Below, piece by piece: positions 2,921-29,459 of a stretch of 64,000 bases of DNA. The stretch covers positions 682,001 through 746,000 of the forward strand of contig NZ_AP019781.1 of the NCBI RefSeq assembly GCF_019669965.1, read 5' to 3'. Every line of letters starts with the position of its first letter. The first letter of the stretch is position 1. Below the pieces are notes generated by a model that saw only the letters and a program-made list of their open reading frames with translations, was not told the DNA's origin and made no database searches. A program made the translations under genes and the position numbers. This DNA comes from Methanoculleus chikugoensis (GTDB lineage Archaea; Halobacteriota; Methanomicrobia; Methanomicrobiales; Methanoculleaceae).

Positions 2921-3445
2921 ATGGCAATAACACGACAGGTCGAGATCCCTCCCGGCGTTGACGTCACGCTCGACGGCGGTGTGCTCACGGTCTCCGGACC
3001 GAAGGGCACTCTGGTCCGCGACATGCGCTTCCCGCAGATCGGGATCGCGGTCGAGGGCGGCGAAGTCGTCGTCTCCACGGCATCCGACAAGAAGCGGATC
3101 CTTGCCATGACCGGCACGATCGAGGCGCATGCGAAGAACATGATCCAGGGTGTTGTCGACGGCTACGAGTACCGGATGAAGGTGGTCTACAGCCACTTCC
3201 CGATCCAGCTCAAGCAGCAGGGCAACCGCCTCGAGATCACCAACTTCCTCGGCGAGAAACAGCCCCGGGTCGCAAAGATCATCGAGGGTGTCACCGTCAA
3301 GCTTGGAAACGACGAGGTAACGCTCACCGGTATCGACAAGGAGAAGGTGGGCAACACGGCCGCAAACATCGAGCACGCGACCAGGATCACGAAGCGCGAT
3401 CCCCGGGTGTTCCAGGACGGCATCTACATCACTGAGAGGGCGTGA
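2921..3445 (+). CDS. rpl6: Ribosomal protein uL6 (L6P)
   Basis: Large-subunit protein near the GTPase-associated centre, 174 residues with two L6 repeats (VEIPPGVDVTLDGGVLTVSG; C-terminal GNTAANIEHATRITKRDPR). Two in-frame ATGs, 2915 and 2921, follow the GGAGGGAG Shine-Dalgarno run. 2921 is preferred because 2915 would leave almost no spacing. Its stop overlaps the region where rpl32e begins. Confidence 0.95.
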   Translation: MAITRQVEIPPGVDVTLDGGVLTVSGPKGTLVRDMRFPQIGIAVEGGEVVVSTASDKKRILAMTGTIEAHAKNMIQGVVDGYEYRMKVVYSHFPIQLKQQGNRLEITNFLGEKQPRVAKIIEGVTVKLGNDEVTLTGIDKEKVGNTAANIEHATRITKRDPRVFQDGIYITERA

Positions 3446-19094: not shown

Positions 19095-19114
19095 TTAAGG
19101 TAATAATAATTTAC
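19095..19114 (-). promoter_or_regulatory. Palindrome-like element upstream of btuF
   Basis: TTAAGGTAA (19095-19103) and TTTAC (19110-19114) lie 18 or more bases before the btuF ATG, inside the A/T-rich promoter. The same TTAAGGTAA followed by TTTAC is found before the DUF364 module at 26.64 kb. It may be a shared operator. The remaining bases up to 19233 hold nothing recognised. Confidence 0.35.
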
Positions 19115-19233: not shown

Positions 19234-20490
19234 TCAATCGCGTTCGGGGCCGTCCTGCGAGAGACGGGCAAGAAGTCCCTCCGCCCCCTCGACCCGGGGT
19301 GCCCCGCGCGCCTCCAGTTCGGTCAGCACCGCCCCGGCCTCGCCCCCGGTGTAGTCTTCCATCCGGGCGGTGCGGTCTCTTGCATAGAAGATTACCGGTT
19401 TTGCCGGATAGTCGAGCAGCACCCGGAGATTGTCGAGGTTCCCCCTGCCTATCGGCATTGCCGTGACGACGACGGTGTCTGCACTCTCCAGGCACTCCCT
19501 GAGGCGCGAGAGCGATTTCGGAGTGATGCCGTGGAACGGGGGCTCCGCGATGCAGGGAAGACCGAGGTGCATCGCCGTCCCGTAGTCGGTGTCGAGGACG
19601 TTCAGGACGCCGCAGGTGACCGTGAAGCCCGCGGCATGAAGGAGGTGGAGGATATCGGACCCCGTCCCCCCGCCGCAGACGACGTGCACCCGCCGGTTCG
19701 CCCCCGCACCCGACTGGTGCATATATACCGGCAGGACGTACGGCCTCCCCGTCAGCGGGTGCGGTCTGACGAGCATCTCCATCCCGAAGACCTCACGGAT
19801 CTTCTCACGGGTCAGGACTTCCCCGGGTGTTCCTGCGGCGTAGACCTTCCGGTCTTTGAGAAGCAGGAGCCGGTCACAGTAGTATGCGGCCAGGTTCAGG
19901 TCGTGGAAGACGCTTACGACCGTGATCTCTCCCGCGAGATCCCTGATGATGTTGAGGATCTCGACCTGGTGGCTGACGTCGAGGTTCGAGGTTGCTTCGT
20001 CGAGCAGCAGGATCTTCGGTTCCTGCGTGAGCGCCCGGGCGATGAGGACGCGCTGGCGTTCCCCGCCGCTGATCTCGTGCACTGACATCCCGGCGAGATC
20101 CGCGACGTTTGCAAGGTGCATGGCATGGTCGCAGATCTCCGCGTCCCGGGCCGTCTCGGAGGCGAACCTTCCGATGTAGGGGTGCCTCCCCATCATGACG
20201 ACGTCGCGCACTGTGTAATCGAAGCCGATCGAGATATCCTGCGGGACGACCGCAACCCGGCGCGCGAGTTCCCGGTGTCCGAGCGAGTCCAGATCCCGGT
20301 CGTCGAGCCGGATATCCCCGTTATCCCGGGCGACGACCCTGCTCATCGCTTTCAAAAGCGTTGTCTTCCCCGATCCGTTCGGCCCGACGATACCGAGGAT
20401 CTCGCCTGCTTCTGCGTGGAACGTGATCGCTTCGAGGATCTTCTTTGCGCCGTAGGAGACGTCGATATCGATGATCTCAATCGGTTTCAT
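19234..20490 (-). CDS. btuD: Cobalamin/iron ABC transporter ATPase with C-terminal extension
   Basis: 418 residues. The first 250 or so are a BtuD/FepC-type ATPase: Walker A GPNGSGKTT, FDYTVRDVVMMGRHPYIGRF, signature ISGGERQR, Walker B KILLLDEATSNLD. The remaining 160 residues form a separate domain beginning VHVVCGGGTGSDILHLLHAA, with a glycine-rich nucleotide-binding look. Such extensions occur in archaeal BtuD homologues; the role is unknown. ATG 20490 overlaps the permease stop (ATGA). Confidence 0.88.
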   Translation of the reverse strand: MKPIEIIDIDVSYGAKKILEAITFHAEAGEILGIVGPNGSGKTTLLKAMSRVVARDNGDIRLDDRDLDSLGHRELARRVAVVPQDISIGFDYTVRDVVMMGRHPYIGRFASETARDAEICDHAMHLANVADLAGMSVHEISGGERQRVLIARALTQEPKILLLDEATSNLDVSHQVEILNIIRDLAGEITVVSVFHDLNLAAYYCDRLLLLKDRKVYAAGTPGEVLTREKIREVFGMEMLVRPHPLTGRPYVLPVYMHQSGAGANRRVHVVCGGGTGSDILHLLHAAGFTVTCGVLNVLDTDYGTAMHLGLPCIAEPPFHGITPKSLSRLRECLESADTVVVTAMPIGRGNLDNLRVLLDYPAKPVIFYARDRTARMEDYTGGEAGAVLTELEARGAPRVEGAEGLLARLSQDGPERD

Positions 20491-21446
20491 GATTTTGTCC
20501 GGCTCCGGAGGAGGTATATGAAGAACGGCGCGCCGAAGCAGGCGGTCAGGATGCCGACCGGCATGTCGCTCGTGAAGGTTCGCGTGAGCGCATCCGCCCA
20601 TACGAGGAGGATGGCGCCTGCAAGCGCGGCCGCGGGAAAGAGGAAACGGTGGTCGGGCCCGACGATCAGCCGCATCACGTGCGGGGTGATCAGGCCGATG
20701 AACCCGATTGAACCGGCTACCGCAACGGCTATGCCCGTCACGAACGCGCTCAGCGCGAGGAGGATCAGTTTCGTCCGCTCGACGTTCACCCCGAGATGGG
20801 TTGCGTCCTCTTCGTTCAGGGCGAGGATGTTGAGGTCGCGTGCGAAGAGGTAGATGCCTGCGCCCCCGATCAGGATGGGGAGGGCGACGCCGACGTCGTT
20901 CCACGCTATGTTCCAGAACCCTCCCATCAGCCAGAACATGATCTGGTGCAGGCTCCGCCCTGCGGTATACATGAGGAAGGAGAGGAGTGCCGAGAGAAGC
21001 GTCGCGAGGGCGACACCGGAGAGCAGGAGCGTCTCGACCGGGATCTTGCCGCCTCTGCGGGCGATGAAGTATACGGCGAACGTGGCGCCTATCGCCCCGG
21101 CGAATGCAAGCACGGGGCGTCCCGTGCCGGCAAAGAGGACGATTGCGAGGGTAGCCCCGAGCGCTCCGCCCGACGATGTGCCGATGATGTAGGGGTCGGC
21201 CATGGGGTTTCGGAAGAGTGCCTGCATGGCCGTGCCTGCCACGGCAAGCCCGCACCCGACCAGCGCCGCGGCGATCACCCTCGGCACCCGGATCTCCCAG
21301 AGGATCATCCAGGCGTTATCCGAGGTGAAGAGCGATCCAAAGGAGATCCCGCTCGGTCCGAGAGCGACCGCAGCGGCCATGCTGATGAGAAGCGCGCAGA
21401 TGAGCGTCAGGATGATGATCGGTGCCGTTCTCCGCATATATGTCAT
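20487..21446 (-). CDS. btuC: Cobalamin/iron ABC transporter permease
   Basis: 319 residues, FecCD/BtuC family: VPRVIAAALVGCGLAVAGTA, QALFRNPMADPYIIGTSSGG and FIGLITPHVMRLIVGPDHRF are the classic segments; eight to ten membrane helices. First gene of the importer unit, with an A/T-rich leader (21447-21486) containing TTAAGTTTAC. Partner of the ATPase that overlaps its end and of the binding protein downstream. Confidence 0.9.
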   Translation of the reverse strand: MTYMRRTAPIIILTLICALLISMAAAVALGPSGISFGSLFTSDNAWMILWEIRVPRVIAAALVGCGLAVAGTAMQALFRNPMADPYIIGTSSGGALGATLAIVLFAGTGRPVLAFAGAIGATFAVYFIARRGGKIPVETLLLSGVALATLLSALLSFLMYTAGRSLHQIMFWLMGGFWNIAWNDVGVALPILIGGAGIYLFARDLNILALNEEDATHLGVNVERTKLILLALSAFVTGIAVAVAGSIGFIGLITPHVMRLIVGPDHRFLFPAAALAGAILLVWADALTRTFTSDMPVGILTACFGAPFFIYLLRSRTKS

Positions 21447-21555
21447 AAAATTAAGTTTACTTTGTTAAAATCTATTTGGATTATCTGTGCGGGTCTGCCT
21501 CACCGAATCGCATGGAGCAAACCTCATTGCCCTTGATGACCAAGAGATCTGGCAT

Positions 21556-22724: not shown

Positions 22725-22904
22725 ATGAGCGCTACAGGAGAACAGTATGTCGTCGATGAGCACGGGAACCGGGTCGCGGTTATTCTCCCTCTCCAGGAGT
22801 ACGAGCAGCTGCAGGAAGATCTCCATGACCTTGCCGTGGTCGCGGAGCGGCGTAACGAACCAACCGTAGGGTTCAGAGAATTCCGGAAGCGATACGAGCA
22901 GTAA
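22725..22904 (+). CDS. RelB/Phd-like antitoxin
   Basis: 59 residues: GEQYVVDEHGNRVAVILPLQ followed by EYEQLQEDLHDLAVVAERRN is the usual antitoxin layout, a short DNA-binding/dimer strand then a helix that wraps the toxin, ending in EFRKRYEQ. ATG 22725 has GTGAGGAG at good spacing. Its stop overlaps the ATG of a RelE-type toxin gene that is frameshifted, so the antitoxin may now be an orphan. Confidence 0.78.
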   Translation: MSATGEQYVVDEHGNRVAVILPLQEYEQLQEDLHDLAVVAERRNEPTVGFREFRKRYEQ

Positions 22905-23244
22905 TGGCGGGGTACGCGATTCGCGTAAAGGCGAGTGTCGAGAAAGATATCGCAGTATTGCCGCATGATATTGTTCTCTGCATCTTTGGAGCATAGACAG
23001 TCTATCTGAAAACCCTCTGCCGCATGGTGTATGTAAGTTAAGCGGAGCAGAACACCTCTACCGGACCCGGGTAGGGGACTACCGGATTATATATGCCGTG
23101 CATCATGAGGAGCGGGAGGTTATAATCCTCTATATCCGTCACCGCCGTAGCGCATATCGCGGGGTTGTGATGGCACCTGTTTTGTATGTCCGATTCCGCT
23201 CGTCATATGGTTCTCCTGAACGTTCTCAAGTAAGGCTTTGTTGA
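22904..23244 (+). pseudogene. RelE-family toxin, frameshifted
   Basis: The first frame gives AGYAIRVKASVEKDIAVLPH and stops at TAG 22994-22996. The next frame then carries SENPLPHGVCKLSGAEHLYR and TRVGDYRIIYAVHHEEREVI, the conserved RelE/ParE core with the catalytic-type Arg/Tyr segment. One base lost around 22987-22990 explains the break: restoring one A gives IFESIDSLSEN. The recognisable domain ends near 23160; the shifted frame runs on to TGA 23242-23244. Confidence 0.8.
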
Positions 23245-23340: not shown

Positions 23341-23900
23341 TATCGCCATGACTGCCCCCGCCCCTTGGAGTGGGATGTGACGTTCCGATAGGAACGGAGC
23401 TCGACCACCGTCAGGTGGGAAGTGCGACGGACGGAACGTCCGGAGCTTGAGAAGACCGAAGGTCTTCGAGTGGGGGCTACACGCCTCTTTATGGGCTGGA
23501 GACGGGGGAGTTCACCTCGCAAGCCCTTTCGTACATCCTCCTGCAATGTACATCACCACCGTGGCAGAGTATCTGCCGCGGTCTCAGTACTTCGCTAAAA
23601 CGGTTGAGGTAATCTTCAAGAGGTCAAACCATCGTCCCTTCGCGTTCTCCCGCGTGCTTCCGCGTGAAGCCATATTGCTATCTTTGCCCATTAACTCGCG
23701 CGAAGAGCGCGAAGCCGCGAAGCGCGACTGGCCGAAGGTGCGACGTTCCAGAGGAACGGAGCTGGAGCACCGTTAGGTGCGTGGGCAGGAGCATGAGCAC
23801 CGCAAGGTGCGAAGTGCGATGTTCCGTCAGGAACAGAGCTCGAGCACCGCAAGGTGCGAAGTCCGGTGCCCGGGTGCTGCCGATCCCGTTGTAGGTCGCT
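23341..23900. repeat. Hairpin-module repeat array, copy B
   Basis: Bases 23245-24086 hold no credible gene. From 23341 the stretch carries TATCGCCATGACTGCCCCCG, a 60-base block (23422-23481) about 92% identical to one at 49309-49368, and a run of small hairpins of two kinds: GTTCC-n-GGAAC (near 23384, 23747, 23821) and GCACC/CCACC-n-GGTGC/GGTGG (near 23405, 23768, 23795, 23848). Units are spaced irregularly. Short ORFs here (such as 23447-23776) translate the repeat in all frames and are not genes. Confidence 0.75.
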
Positions 23901-24086: not shown

Positions 24087-24851
24087 TCAAACCCCGGGGC
24101 GAAGATACTCCACCTTCATTCCCGCCCCGAAGATCCTCTGGTTTTCCGCTCCTCTGATGATCCTTTTCGCGAGCGCAGCATCGGTTGCGACAAAACCCGA
24201 GAGATCGGAGACGCCGTACTCGAAGAAGACCGAAGAGAGGGGAGTCCCGGGGCCCACGATCGTCACTCTCTCTGCGTTCTCCGAAAGTTCAAGGAGCCGC
24301 GGCATGCTTTTGTCGCCGAGAGCGCCACAGGTCAGAAACACATAGTCGGACTCCGGGAGCAGGTACTCGCAGGCAGAATACGGATAATCTCCCTCCTCGG
24401 GGTCCCACTCAACAATGCTCAGGTCGCAGACGGGGGCAATCAACTTCTCAAGGAACGGGAAATGACCGACAACACAGACTTTTTTACCCTTTACAAGGTT
24501 CTGGGATTTGATGAACGGGTCTTTCAGCCGTTCCTCGACCCGTTTCTTCTCTGCAACCTCGATCCCTGCTCTCCTGGCGGTATCCGGATGATTGTACCAC
24601 GCATTGATCGCCGCGTTGCCGATCGATGCTTCCCATAGGTTCCAGGACTTCACACACCCGGCTATCTCTTTTAACGGTTTTCCAATCTTGTTTTCGGTCA
24701 TCATCGGGGCACGCTGGATATAATAGCGGTATCCTGCAATACCGATGCCACCGTTTGCCTCAACATACGTCAGCTCCCCGCCGAGGGCCATATCTTCAAC
24801 GATAATGTCGTCGGGGATCCCTTCGATCAACGCATCGTATAATTGCCACAT
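24087..24851 (-). CDS. DUF364 family protein (putative metal-chelation domain)
   Basis: 254 residues. N-terminal DUF4213-like part (LYDALIEGIPDDIIVEDMAL), then the Rossmann-like DUF364 part with GKKVCVVGHFPFLEKLI, DYVFLTCGALGDKSMPRLLE and VTIVGPGTPLSSVFFEYGVS. The family is annotated as putative heavy-metal chelation and is often next to metal or corrinoid transporters. ATG 24851 has AGGAG upstream. It follows the ATPase gene by one base, last gene of a three-gene operon. Confidence 0.85.
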   Translation of the reverse strand: MWQLYDALIEGIPDDIIVEDMALGGELTYVEANGGIGIAGYRYYIQRAPMMTENKIGKPLKEIAGCVKSWNLWEASIGNAAINAWYNHPDTARRAGIEVAEKKRVEERLKDPFIKSQNLVKGKKVCVVGHFPFLEKLIAPVCDLSIVEWDPEEGDYPYSACEYLLPESDYVFLTCGALGDKSMPRLLELSENAERVTIVGPGTPLSSVFFEYGVSDLSGFVATDAALAKRIIRGAENQRIFGAGMKVEYLRPGV

Positions 24852-24852
24852 A

Positions 24853-25887
24853 TCATTTCTCCTGAAATTCCGGAATACTCTCGTTTGTGACGATCGCTCC
24901 CCTCCGGAGCTGGTTGCGGATATTGAGGAGGGCGGAATCGATCGCCTCGATCTTATGCAGTGTCTGCTCCTCTTCCGCGGTCGTTTCAATCACTTTTGTC
25001 ACGCCCCCGTTTCTGATGACGATCCTTTTGTCGGCACGGAGGGCAAGGAGCGGATCGTGCGTCGACATGAGGACAATCTTCTCGTTGCCGACGAGGATCT
25101 CGATCGCCTCCCGCCGGTCGATTCCTGCATTCTCCAGCTCGTCGATGAGGATGATCGGGGATGAACTCAACAAGGCGGTATCGGCGATCATCAGCGACCG
25201 CGACTGTCCCCCGGAGAGCTGGGTGACTTTCGTATCCAGGGTGAATTTCTCCCCTGCTAACGAATTGGCAACCGCAAAACACTTCTCCACAACCGCGGCG
25301 GAGCCCGGGATCATCCGGCTTTTTGCATGCATCTCCAGAAACTCCTGCACCGTCAGGTCCATGACGAAGTTCATGTTCTGCGAGAGCTGGGCTACCAGTT
25401 TTCCTCCGGTAGAAAACCTCTTATCGAGATCGGGGGCCGAACCGTTGATGAGAATCTGCCTTGCGGTCGGCGTATCGCGCTGGGCAAGGCACTCGATATC
25501 CTCGAGCAGCCTGCTTTTTCCCGAGCCGGTGGGACCGACAATGCTTACGACCTCGCCGGGTGTCACGGTCAGTTCGAGCATCTCGGGCCTCCCCGTCTTA
25601 TCTCGTCCGCCGAGGATCGTGATGGAGGAGATCGTCTCGATAGACTCTTCCATTCGCGAGAATGCCTCAAGAAATGCACTGAAATGGAATATAACCTCCT
25701 CGCGGTCAAGCCCGAACTCCTCAAGCATATCCTCATCGACGTTCTCCAGGATCTCGGGAAGCGTCTTTGTTTCATCAACCCCAACCAACCGTATGTTGGC
25801 GAGGTAATCAACCGCAAGAGGATACCGGCGAAGGATATCGCCGATTGGCACCGACGAGACCTCTGCAACATAGTCAAAGGCTTTCAT
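24853..25887 (-). CDS. Soluble ABC-type ATPase of a putative metallocofactor module
   Basis: 344 residues. The first 100 form a helical domain (VPIGDILRRYPLAVDYLANI, EEFGLDREEVIFHFSAFLEA) that resembles DUF1858/ScdA-N-like domains. The ATPase part has Walker A GPTGSGKSR, signature LSGGQSRS, Walker B IILIDELENAGID and switch His in LMSTHDP. No permease is nearby, so it is probably not a transporter; the build recalls non-transport ABC ATPases used in cofactor insertion or repair. Overlaps the GTPase gene by four bases. Confidence 0.8.
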   Translation of the reverse strand: MKAFDYVAEVSSVPIGDILRRYPLAVDYLANIRLVGVDETKTLPEILENVDEDMLEEFGLDREEVIFHFSAFLEAFSRMEESIETISSITILGGRDKTGRPEMLELTVTPGEVVSIVGPTGSGKSRLLEDIECLAQRDTPTARQILINGSAPDLDKRFSTGGKLVAQLSQNMNFVMDLTVQEFLEMHAKSRMIPGSAAVVEKCFAVANSLAGEKFTLDTKVTQLSGGQSRSLMIADTALLSSSPIILIDELENAGIDRREAIEILVGNEKIVLMSTHDPLLALRADKRIVIRNGGVTKVIETTAEEEQTLHKIEAIDSALLNIRNQLRRGAIVTNESIPEFQEK

Positions 25888-26576
25888 GCGTCGTCAAACT
25901 CCATCCTTTTGACCATCCCCATCTGGTACATCTCTCCGATAAGGGTCTCGCCGGTACAGTAGGAGCAGATGGCAGCAGGCATCGTGAATCTGAGTTTACG
26001 GTCGCGAAGTGTCCGGATATCCAGCGTATCCTGCCAGTGGCGGGCAAGCATAAACGCTCCCTGGCCCGTAATTCCGTTTACGAAGAGAACCGTTGCCGAT
26101 GCATTGACCTCACGGATATTGAAGGCGAAGACCTCGCGCTCCGCCTGGGAGACGACATCTCCTTTCGTGACAACGACGACATCGGCATACTTCAGCATCG
26201 GACCGATCTTTCGGGGTGTGTTGATGCCGGAGAGGTTGTCGATCACACAGACCGATAAAATGCCGTTCACGTATGGCGAGCACCGGTTGCAGAGCCCTGC
26301 GCTTTCCGTGACAAGAACCGACAATCCCTTCTTCATGCCCCATTCAACCGCCCCTTCAACATTGCTGACGAAATGGTGGTCCGGACAGATCTTTCCGGCA
26401 AAAGCAGTCTGATTGGGGATCTGCTGTTCATCGTAGCGCTGGTGATCGAAGGAGGTGAGCGAGTCAAACTTCACGACGCCCACGCTCCCCGGGGGCAGTC
26501 CAAGGGCTGCAATGGTTTTGAGGATCACAGAGGTCTTCCCCGAAGATGGAGGGCCTGCAACGGTAATCAGTTTCAT
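25884..26576 (-). CDS. HypB/UreG-like GTPase of a putative metallocofactor module
   Basis: 230 residues from ATG 26576 (GTG 26606 would add ten). P-loop at the N terminus (ITVAGPPSSGKTSVIL), later VVVTKGD as the guanine-binding motif and VNASATVLFVNGITGQGAF, the order seen in HypB/UreG/CobW metal-insertion GTPases. Extra Cys/His groups (ICPDHHF, GLCNRCSPY, AICSYCTG) could bind metal. First gene of the operon with the ABC ATPase and DUF364 protein. Confidence 0.82.
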   Translation of the reverse strand: MKLITVAGPPSSGKTSVILKTIAALGLPPGSVGVVKFDSLTSFDHQRYDEQQIPNQTAFAGKICPDHHFVSNVEGAVEWGMKKGLSVLVTESAGLCNRCSPYVNGILSVCVIDNLSGINTPRKIGPMLKYADVVVVTKGDVVSQAEREVFAFNIREVNASATVLFVNGITGQGAFMLARHWQDTLDIRTLRDRKLRFTMPAAICSYCTGETLIGEMYQMGMVKRMEFDDA

Positions 26577-26636
26577 AAGCGTCTGGTGCTCTGGTATAGG
26601 ATTCACCGATGTATAGCCGTTACTAAATTCATTTTT

Positions 26637-26656
26637 TTAAGGTAAATTAGTTTACC
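26637..26656 (-). promoter_or_regulatory. Palindromic operator candidate of the DUF364 module
   Basis: GGTAAA (26641-26646) and TTTACC (26651-26656) form a perfect inverted repeat with a TTAG spacer, inside an A/T-rich stretch 65 bases before the GTPase ATG. Flanked by TTAA it reads TTAAGGTAAA-n-TTTACC. It resembles metal-repressor boxes of DtxR type in layout, but no regulator can be assigned. Confidence 0.5.
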
Positions 26657-26704
26657 TGGAATGTAGCCCTCGTTCTGTGGGGGTGAATGCCGTCCACCGA
26701 GGAT

Positions 26705-26711
26705 AAAAAAA
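26705..26711 (-). terminator. T7 terminator after mtrH
   Basis: Seven T on the minus strand five bases after the mtrH stop, the expected end of the mtr transcript. Confidence 0.6.
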
Positions 26712-26715
26712 GGGT

Positions 26716-27753
26716 TTAAATGAGTTTGAAGAGCGGGTGGGTGTCCACCTGAGGCTCGATGCCGAGGTCGCGCACCGCTTCCAGCACGACGATGTCGGAG
26801 TAGGCCTGTGCGGTGATCATCGCCTCGACGTTCTCGATCGGGCCGTACATGATCAGGTCGGCGCCGAGCGTGCTTGCAATCATGTTGCAGCCGATATCGG
26901 GCGCGGACCAGGCCGCCTGGCGCAGCCCGTCCGTACCGCCGAGGTAGTGGTGGGTGAGCTGCTTGACAAGGTTCTCCTTGCCCTCGAGGCCGGCGAGCTG
27001 CTGGGAGGGGGTCTTCTTCGTTCCCTTCCACCGCTTGAGCCAGGTCCAGGAGACGGTCATGTTGTGGTACGCGCCGCCGGTGGGGAGGCCGTGGATCGCC
27101 TTGCAGGCGAGGATCTCACGGTACGAGCCGCCGGAGCCGAGGCCGAGCGGGGTTGCCGCGGTGTCGAGGATCGGGCGGGTGATACCGCACTTCTCCGCGA
27201 TCTCGAGCATACCCATCTCCTGTCCGGCGACACCGCCCTCGACCAGAACCTTCTCGCGGCCGGCAACCGACGGGTCGCCGGGGTTGAAGGCGAGGACGAT
27301 CGCGGCGGTCACGTCGCTCTTTGCCAGCGCCTCGATGTTCTCGGGCAGGATCGAGCCGTTGATCGAGTTGTAGATCGCACGGTCCGCAATGCCTGTCTCG
27401 GTGACGTACTGGCACGCGTGAGCCAGCGCCGCCGGGACGGAAGAGTCCATCAGGAATGCGGTCTTGTCGTCGATGCTGCAGAACCAGTCGATGTAGCTCT
27501 CGAAGGCCTCGCCGAACTCCCCGATGATCTGGATGAAGTGCGGAATACCCGTGATATCCGAGAGTTCCTGGCAGCGGTTCCAGAGCGCCTCCGCCGTGGG
27601 TTTGTCAATCTTTCCAGTGTGGTCATCCAGTACAACTTCGTGTTTGTTGTAGAAGATGGATGCACCGAGCACGGTCGGGTACTCTCCAGGCTGCCCGCCG
27701 ATCTTGGTACCGTTGAAGTCGTGTACCGTCTGCTCTTTTTCGAATTTGAACAT
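26716..27753 (-). CDS. mtrH: H4MPT S-methyltransferase subunit H
   Basis: Cytoplasmic catalytic subunit that moves the methyl group from methyl-H4MPT to the cobalt of MtrA. 345 residues, TIM-barrel methyltransferase: FKFEKEQTVHDFNGTKIGGQ, PGEYPTVLGASIFYNKHEVV, FNPGDPSVAGREKVLVEGGV, CNMIASTLGADLIMYGPIEN. ATG 27753 has AAGGAGG on its strand at proper spacing. Last gene of the mtr operon. Confidence 0.97.
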   Translation of the reverse strand: MFKFEKEQTVHDFNGTKIGGQPGEYPTVLGASIFYNKHEVVLDDHTGKIDKPTAEALWNRCQELSDITGIPHFIQIIGEFGEAFESYIDWFCSIDDKTAFLMDSSVPAALAHACQYVTETGIADRAIYNSINGSILPENIEALAKSDVTAAIVLAFNPGDPSVAGREKVLVEGGVAGQEMGMLEIAEKCGITRPILDTAATPLGLGSGGSYREILACKAIHGLPTGGAYHNMTVSWTWLKRWKGTKKTPSQQLAGLEGKENLVKQLTHHYLGGTDGLRQAAWSAPDIGCNMIASTLGADLIMYGPIENVEAMITAQAYSDIVVLEAVRDLGIEPQVDTHPLFKLI

Positions 27754-27769: not shown

Positions 27770-28507
27770 TTACAGGTACCCAATCAATTTGGGCAGTAAT
27801 ACCAACAACATCATGAATACAATCAAACCTGCGACCAGTCCGTACAGGATGCCGATATCGCGCCCGACCTTTCTTCCGACGCGCTGGGCGATCTCGGCAT
27901 CGACGAACTCGATCCTCTCCTCGATGGCGTTGAGCCGCTCTTCGATCTCAAGGAACTGCGGGTTTGCGCCTGCAACGGCAACCTCTGCCGCACCGGCTGC
28001 TTCCTTGACCTCGACGACCATGGGTTCCGCGCCGAAGGCACCGGGGTCTTTGGCCTTGAGCTCGTTGATCTTGGCCTTGATGGCGCCCATGTCCTCGCTT
28101 TCCATGATGTTGACGATCTCGACCTGGTCCTGGAAGCGCTTGATCGCTTCGTCGGAGAGGTTCTCGATGAACGGGATGGCTCCCTGAGCGCCGACAATCT
28201 TTCCGCCGGCGACACCGCCTTCGTGCAGGGCCATGAAACTCTGCCCGGACAGGTGTCCCTTGACCTCCGTACCGCAACAGAGGATGAACCTGATGTTGGG
28301 GTTGGAGATGACGTTCGCGATGATCTTCTCAAGGCCGAGGTTTTCGGTCTTGCAGGACCCGGCGATTGCCGCTCCGGCATCGCAGATGCCCTGCTCGTCG
28401 AGGTGAGATCCCATGGTGACGACGCCGACGCAGCTCTGTGCATCTCCTGTGTGGAAGTCGCCCTGGACAATCGGCCATCCGCTGGCCGGAGATTTCTTCT
28501 CAACCAT
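27770..28507 (-). CDS. mtrG: MtrA-MtrG fusion: duplicated corrinoid subunit joined to MtrG
   Basis: 245 residues. Residues 1 to about 165 are a nearly exact copy of MtrA (next entry but one), including the axial-ligand His in EVKGHLSG at residue 85. After a short Ala-rich linker, residues 180-245 are Mtr[38 protein letters not shown] and a C-terminal membrane helix. Normal MtrG has only about 70-80 residues and no corrinoid domain. The gene sits exactly at the mtrG position, between mtrF and mtrH. Bases 28018-28507 differ from the mtrA copy at only about four positions. Confidence 0.93.
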
Positions 28508-28723: not shown

Positions 28724-29449
28724 TCACCCCAGCAAGATGAACCCCAGAATCACGAACGAGACGATCAGGCCGATCATGAGGCCCTCAATCTTGCCCGAGT
28801 AGACGCCGGCGGCAAACTTGTTACGGTACCCGATGTCGGTGACCATCCGCTCGATGACTTTCATCCGTGCGTGTATCAGTGCCAGTTCGCCGGAGAGTGG
28901 CTGTACTTCACCGGTCGCTTCCTCTGCGCCGGCACCTGCCGCTTCCTTGACCTCGACGATCATGGGTTCCGCGCCGAAGGCACCGGGGTCTTTGGCCTTG
29001 AGCTCGTTGATCTTGGCCTTGATGGCGCCCATGTCCTCGCTTTCCATGATGTTGACGATCTCGACCTGGTCCTGGAAGCGCTTGATCGCTTCGTCGGAGA
29101 GGTTCTCGATGAACGGGATGGCTCCCTGAGCGCCGACAATCTTTCCGCCGGCGACACCGCCTTCGTGCAGGGCCATGAAACTCTGCCCGGACAGGTGTCC
29201 CTTGACCTCCGTACCGCAACAGAGGATGAACCTGATGTTGGGGTTGGAGATGACGTTCGCGATGATCTTCTCAAGGCCGAGGTTCTCGGTCTTGCAGGAC
29301 CCGGCGATTGCCGCTCCGGCATCGCAGATGCCCTGCTCGTCGAGGTGAGATCCCATGGTGACGACGCCGACGCAGCTCTGTGCATCTCCTGTGTGGAAGT
29401 CGCCCTGGACAATCGGCCATCCGCTGGCCGGTGATTTCTTTTCAACCAT
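28724..29449 (-). CDS. mtrA: H4MPT S-methyltransferase subunit A (corrinoid protein)
   Basis: Carries the 5-hydroxybenzimidazolyl-cobamide that accepts the methyl group from H4MPT and gives it to coenzyme M. 241 residues: soluble corrinoid domain ([40 protein letters not shown] with the cobalt-ligand His 85), a linker, and a C-terminal anchor ([19 protein letters not shown]). ATG 29449 follows AGGTGA; an upstream in-frame start would overlap mtrB. A near-identical second copy of the soluble domain is fused to MtrG. Confidence 0.96.
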
Positions 29450-29459
29450 GTTCTTCACC

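Follow-up and report, generated by a model that had tools for sequence, protein, structure and literature searches.

A conserved palindrome upstream of a GTPase/ABC/DUF364 module in Methanoculleus, a probable operator among the Methanomicrobiales

Gene order and promoter of the module

The DNA analysed here, called the window throughout, is a 64,000-nucleotide stretch of a 2.62-Mb Methanoculleus chromosome (G000:C1:682001-746000), whose nearest named relatives are M. chikugoensis (L016) and Methanoculleus sp. Afa-1 (L049). On its minus strand the mcr-mtr operon, ending with mtrH (26716), is followed by the three genes of the module: a CobW/HypB/UreG-type GTPase (25884..26576), a soluble ABC-type ATPase (24853..25887) and a DUF4213/DUF364 protein of putative heavy-metal chelation (24087..24851), which starts with MWQLYD as in the relatives. 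No regulator gene lies beside the module in the Methanoculleus loci. MerR (L022), LysR/ModE-type HTH (L065), PadR (L031), GntR (L038), HTH_3 (L261) and FmdE zinc-finger proteins at other loci were considered as regulator candidates and set aside, as none is consistent across loci.

Several features of the surroundings were recorded in passing. Short repeats (gagcaccgcaaggtgcgaag and ggaacggagct) are clustered at 23400-23880, between a toxin-antitoxin pair and the DUF364 gene. The pair itself (22725-23244) consists of a RelB/Phd-type antitoxin gene and then a RelE-type toxin frame, which is apparently interrupted in the window and intact in the relatives L016 and L049. On the other side of the module, one mtr operon contains two MtrA domains (27770-28507 and 28724-29458), one copy being fused to MtrG (Pfam MtrA and MtrG) and the other carrying a weak MtrF-like tail; a comparable pair of long MtrA-type frames is found in the relatives L049 and L021.

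Between mtrH and the GTPase gene lies a perfect palindrome with 6-bp arms, GGTAAA-TTAG-TTTACC (GGTAAATTAGTTTACC, exact at 26641-26656, without strand), adjoined by TTAA at 26637-26640. The original prediction had singled out this element together with two sequences ahead of btuF and btuC, and all three are present where it had placed them; 64 bases separate the palindrome from the GTPase ATG (26576, minus strand). Closer to the gene, TATACAT (26609..26615, minus strand, about 33 bases before the ATG) is (nearly) invariant among 12 module promoters, and AGTAA (26620..26624, minus strand) is kept in most of them. By their sequence these two look like a TATA box and a BRE, respectively, and with TATACAT as the TATA box transcription would start about 10 bases before the GTPase ATG. 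The palindrome is situated about 36 bp upstream of TATACAT, which is the place of an activator site or an upstream repressor site. This location, upstream of a TATA-like element that is itself conserved, makes an operator its probable role.

Symmetry alone proves nothing here, since an equally good inverted repeat arose in 15 of 100 dinucleotide shuffles of the 150-bp region; the bare palindrome is weak. Shuffling the window likewise gave, in 37 of 100 cases, one or more GGTAAAN4TTTACC-like matches with no more than two mismatches. Conservation is the stronger evidence as judged from the alignment. Across five Methanoculleus species (G000, the genome of the window, with G003, G028, G004 and G021) the spacer and flanks have diverged, and the core GTAAA-N4-TTTAC (26642..26655, without strand) is unchanged, which makes it a candidate operator in the clade. 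The arms are invariant in 10/10 columns, compared with 1/4 in the spacer and 73/132 in the other ungapped columns; the outermost G-C pair of the 6-bp arms is found in this genome only. All ten outer columns were invariant in 4 of 129 windows of the same geometry, so the region holds further conserved blocks, most clearly TTTAGTAA and TATACAT. When columns were shuffled, a palindrome as conserved was obtained in 17/200 (arm 5) and 4/200 (arm 7) trials for Methanoculleus, where the groups of five and six genomes overlap, in 5/200 for a Methanocorpusculum trio (arm 8) and in 0/200 for a Methanomicrobium pair (arm 8), with paired changes in the latter two genera. In three of the seven groupings tested no convincing conserved palindrome was detected at this place, and one top hit was a low-identity artefact. 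Taken at the level of sequence, the palindrome is a real conserved promoter element and probably the docking site of a regulator.

It could be argued that the conserved stretch is a core promoter (BRE/TATA or a proximal element) recognised by general factors, its palindromy being an accident. The shuffles of the 150-bp region agree with that, as does the similar element of btuF, itself probably a core promoter (see below). The version in G028 (GTAAACCGGTTTAC) speaks against it, because there the arms are perfect around a CCGG centre; an element that has lost its AT-rich centre, and with it any TATA box, is more than a TATA box alone. TATACAT is conserved in its own right, apart from the palindrome and at a fitting distance, and palindromes with paired changes occupy the same place in two other genera. 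We regard an accidental symmetry as improbable.

Lower still is the likelihood that the palindrome acts in RNA, forming a hairpin or ending transcription of the mtr operon upstream. Its place after mtrH and a possible 7-bp hairpin agree with this, but the fold is weak (-5.3 kcal/mol, equalled in 12 of 200 shuffles), no terminator-like site was found, and the likely point of termination is a T-run directly behind the mtrH stop codon. A search of Rfam with positions 26500-26800 gave no match up to E = 1, either to a cobalamin riboswitch or to another RNA element. Furthermore, GTAAAN4TTTAC is absent after mtrH, from the spacer to the SelB-like gene, in all seven module-less genomes examined. Between the T-run and the palindrome there is a separate GC-rich hairpin (26657-26700, CCCC...GGGG type) which recurs in close relatives and is perhaps a 3' end structure of the mtr transcript.

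Within the 2.62-Mb genome GTAAAN4TTTAC occurs once. Across 35 Methanoculleus genomes it was found at 19 sites in 15 genomes, 5 of them at the module promoter, and the reversed control also gave 19. The original prediction had named random genomic frequency as the outcome that would refute a regulon of this motif, and random frequency is what was found.

Relation to the vitamin B12 importer genes

The same prediction placed the module and the btuCDF importer under a shared repressor, in a metal- or corrinoid-responsive regulon. The sequences on which it relied are TTAAGGTAATAATAATTTAC before btuF (19095-19114, minus strand, read as the promoter element GTAAATTATTATTACCTTAA) and TTAAGTTTAC before btuC (21451-21460, minus strand, promoter element GTAAACTTAA). 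Both parts of the proposed common motif, TTAAGGTAA and TTTAC, are indeed present at the module and at btuF, with a gap of 5 bases at the former and 6 at the latter. Genome-wide, TTAAGGTAAN(0-10)TTTAC has two copies, exactly these two places, and a search with GTAAN(5-9)TTACCTTAA returned the same pair. With a profile made from module sites only, and therefore without btuF, the btuF upstream region ranked second of 240 sampled (21.4; next 12.0) with a one-base insertion; the regions had been sampled from 464 kb by simple gene calling, in which the starts are imprecise. By these sequence scores the likeness of btuF to the module site is real in one genome.

Among the other palindrome carriers it is not kept: of G003, G004 and G021, the three tested, none has a btuF element that reaches 13 bits on the module-site profile. 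Two of 7 carriers of the module do reach this score, compared with 9 of 13 genomes that lack the module. This scoring covered 20 of the 30 loci (L126-L155; L145 and L147-L155 were omitted as partial or more distant), and several gene starts were extrapolated from the alignment. In the window the btuF element, some 30 bases ahead of the btuF ATG, is the only AT-rich stretch of that region, a position suggesting the TATA box of a nearly leaderless gene. It is thus most likely the btuF core promoter and not a shared operator. The btuC element is kept with or without the module. As a target of the 20-bp dyad described below, btuC does not stand out: matches of 7-10/12 occur in 11 genomes, with or without the module and right at the start codon, and do not exceed the level of AT-rich promoters.

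Gene order adds to this. In 7 of 7 module-less genomes examined, mtrH, a SelB-like gene and btuCDF are consecutive, and mtrH adjoins the module in 9 of 12 Methanoculleus carriers. As the mtrH-SelB-btuCDF order is intact without the module, the adjacency is ancestral and the module entered an older mtr-btu neighbourhood. A repressor common to module and btuCDF would account for the rank of btuF and for a joint motif confined to the two places; weighed against the one-base difference in spacing, the TATA position of the btuF element, its distribution among genomes and the greater age of the btuCDF neighbourhood, it appears very unlikely. From sequence, the palindrome is not convincingly common to the module and the vitamin B12 importer, and the corrinoid part of the prediction falls away. 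With regard to the importer, the BtuD ATPase of the window (19234-20496) has a C-terminal extension of about 160 residues, and among NCBIfam models it best matches the corrinoid ATPase NF007082, over residues 5-348.

A FecCD-type importer and a 20-bp dyad in the Methanomicrobiales

A different importer accompanies the module elsewhere. In Acetobacterium, Clostridium and Methanomicrobium the module clusters with a FecCD permease, its ATPase and a binding protein, and a FecCD gene was present in the fetched flanks of 35 of 77 module loci, including four Methanoculleus loci (there of the distant btuC type). BtuC of the window is 36% identical to the module-accompanying permeases of Methanomicrobium and Acetobacterium. 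The true counterpart in this genome, one of six FecCD-type transporters, is located at 2140823-2141905, 1.4 Mb away from the module, and is 68% identical to the Methanomicrobium protein. The importer-1 cluster of the window genome, with a 12/12 dyad in its promoter (2142057-2142076), comprises a second DUF364 protein, an ATPase, a binding protein, two methyltransferases and an FmdE zinc-finger protein. That second DUF364 protein (L261:12219-13067) lies directly upstream of the importer-1 dyad. In many bacteria SBP_bac_6-type proteins adjoin the GTPase/ABC pair (L029:1660-2706, L074:4900-5970); the one in L029 has no obvious signal peptide, as if it were an intracellular solute-binding protein.

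Two Methanomicrobium loci contain nine GTTAAC sequences, all intergenic, which precede the permease, the module, the binding protein and also one pilin gene. Taken with their spacing, they form the dyad GTTAAY-N8-RTTAAC. Sites matching it at 11-12 of 12 positions occur at the module in L165, L166, L103 and L158-L160, at the importer in G000, G004, G003 and L025, and at the binding protein in L025 and L026. Of 30 module promoters, 28 have their best match beginning between -71 and -92, though many of these matches reach only 7-10/12; the module promoters of G030 and of the genomes of L156 and L157 have no dyad site. This 20-bp consensus was first spotted by eye and tested afterwards. In an unbiased scan of 1024 half-sites at 17 spacings, GTTAA-N10-TTAAC ranked first by z. 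It was found in 6 of 19 module promoters (taken from the 30 by dropping near-duplicates) against 0.25 expected, a count that is not decisive alone given a maximum of 7 in the any-dyad null. With importer and binding-protein promoters found by homology included it was again top, in 10 of 23 promoters (0.27 expected, null maximum 8); this set omits two promoters that had been found by the pattern itself and are present in a scan of 24.

The archaeal module loci (16 loci, 149 kb) hold 13 dyad sites with at most one mismatch versus none in the control. The bacterial loci (61 loci, 676 kb) hold 9 versus 11, and an operator shared across domains was accordingly rejected. Over entire genomes the dyad at this stringency is at control level (6 sites and 5 in the control for G000, 4 and 2 for G003, 4 and 3 for G004), so that its locations stand out and its counts do not: G000 has two exact dyads, and they stand before the two FecCD operons that most resemble the importer linked to the module. 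An identical 11/12 dyad is present at G000:C1:36258-36277, before a glycosyltransferase gene, and at G004:C8:6833-6852. A literature search, with subscription journals mostly outside its reach, returned no usable report of this operator or of such a regulon in methanogens.

Whether the window site belongs with these dyads was judged from position and half-site type. An alternative 20-bp register (GTAAACTAATTTACCTTAAA, 26636..26655, minus strand) matches the dyad at 9/12, a level reached at 17 places in the window versus 12 in the control and so not significant alone. The site is below the 11/12 used for dyads, whereas importer-1 in the same genome has 12/12. When 12 Methanoculleus module promoters were aligned, an RTTWAC half-site was apparent at the homologous place before the module (G030 deviates, G001 and G016 do so partly); the right half of the palindrome core (minus-strand ATTTAC) coincides there with the RTTAAC half-site of the remaining Methanoculleus promoters, and the left half, GTAAAC, is 6 bp closer than the left half of the dyad. 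On these sequence comparisons, we infer that the site is a member of the dyad regulon. Alternatively, the 14-bp palindrome might be bound by a regulator that serves the module only, and be unrelated to the 20-bp dyad of other genera. In each of the five carriers GTAAAN4TTTAC is (nearly) unique and one copy is that of the module promoter, and G028 retains the 14-mer and not the 20-mer, as a dedicated site would predict. The alignment of the right half with RTTWAC and an identical half-site type, GTWAAY, count against a separate origin, which we consider unlikely, if the most plausible of the alternatives.

Molybdenum or tungsten as the likely metal

Formylmethanofuran dehydrogenase is the entry enzyme of CO2-reducing methanogenesis. 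It requires tungsten or molybdenum, according to the accessible portion of one report (PMC2954224). In the Methanocorpusculum locus L028 the GTPase and ABC genes follow MoeA and a MoaB/MogA-type gene in a moeA operon, and this MoeA-MoaB-GTPase-ABC operon is divergent from MoaA-MoaE-MoaC-FecCD. One dyad (2995-3014) occupies the gap that separates MoaA from MoeA, and another (1089-1108) is 64 bases ahead of FecCD. Over the 77 module loci, a ModB-like permease was present in 8 and MoaA- or MoaC-like genes in 2-3; beside the Methanoculleus module no molybdenum-cofactor genes were found. DUF364 (PF04016) has been linked to transport and chelation of iron, tungstate, vanadium and molybdate in the available part of PMC2954201, which deals with the genome context of Dhaf4260. 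In contrast to the present case, that part describes no operator and no GTPase/ABC pair, and the terms ‘operon’ and ‘GTPase’ had no hits in its text. Together, the L028 context and PMC2954201 favour molybdenum or tungsten over a corrinoid; iron or another metal is possible.

Known systems were compared with this arrangement. The ModE molybdate regulon of bacteria and some archaea, like the one proposed here, unites a palindromic operator, a molybdate/tungstate importer and molybdenum-cofactor genes, but its importer is ModABC and the one here is of FecCD type. The ModE operator probably also differs in sequence. A search for ModE (TIGR00637) was negative in all 35 Methanoculleus genomes at E <= 0.001, with 7 of 14 controls positive, and a ModE regulon was rejected on that ground. 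FecCD-class importers, which have the B12/siderophore fold, include MolBC-A. As far as the accessible text of PMC4031551 goes, MolBC-A is a molybdate ABC importer, and by analogy the importer considered here could carry molybdate; unlike MolBC-A, it is accompanied by the GTPase, the soluble ABC ATPase, DUF364 and methyltransferases. The biotin operator of BirA, given in the available part of PMC545781 as TTGTAAACC-N14/15-GGTTTACAA, has half-sites like those of the window (GTAAAC/GTTTAC). A BirA regulon was rejected, as the spacer here is 4 (or 8) versus 14-15 and the targets are not biotin genes.

The reading we prefer is that the palindrome is the operator of a module regulator and has diverged from an operator common to the order, to which we assign a probability of about one half. 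A DNA-binding regulator would control the GTPase-ABC-DUF364 operon through the palindrome. The order-wide operator would be the 20-bp dyad, placed in many Methanomicrobiales 70-90 bases before the first module gene and upstream of the TATA element; the same dyad would serve the FecCD-type importer, its binding protein and, in one Methanocorpusculum, the promoters of the divergent moaA and moeA. A dimeric regulator may occupy both half-sites and switch these genes jointly when molybdenum or tungsten is scarce, and the metal or metal complex, once imported, may be handled by the module or delivered by it. From the presence, conservation and position of the sites and their gene context we infer protein binding, the sign of regulation and the metal, which is most likely molybdenum or tungsten, with a regulator other than ModE. 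As such, the idea of a module co-regulated with an importer of metal is partly supported in altered form: a regulatory site is likely and the link to an importer is seen in relatives, the importer not being btuCDF.

More tentatively, the Methanomicrobiales may possess ModE-less sensing of molybdenum or tungsten, in which the dyad would couple the FecCD importer, cofactor synthesis and the GTPase-ABC-DUF364 module, its operator having been compressed from 20 to 14 bp in the Methanoculleus clade of the window. A defined operator is a direct handle for finding the regulator in the Methanomicrobiales. Among the six FecCD-type transporters it would point out the partner of the DUF364 module, and it gives the uncharacterised GTPase/ABC/DUF364 set a testable function.
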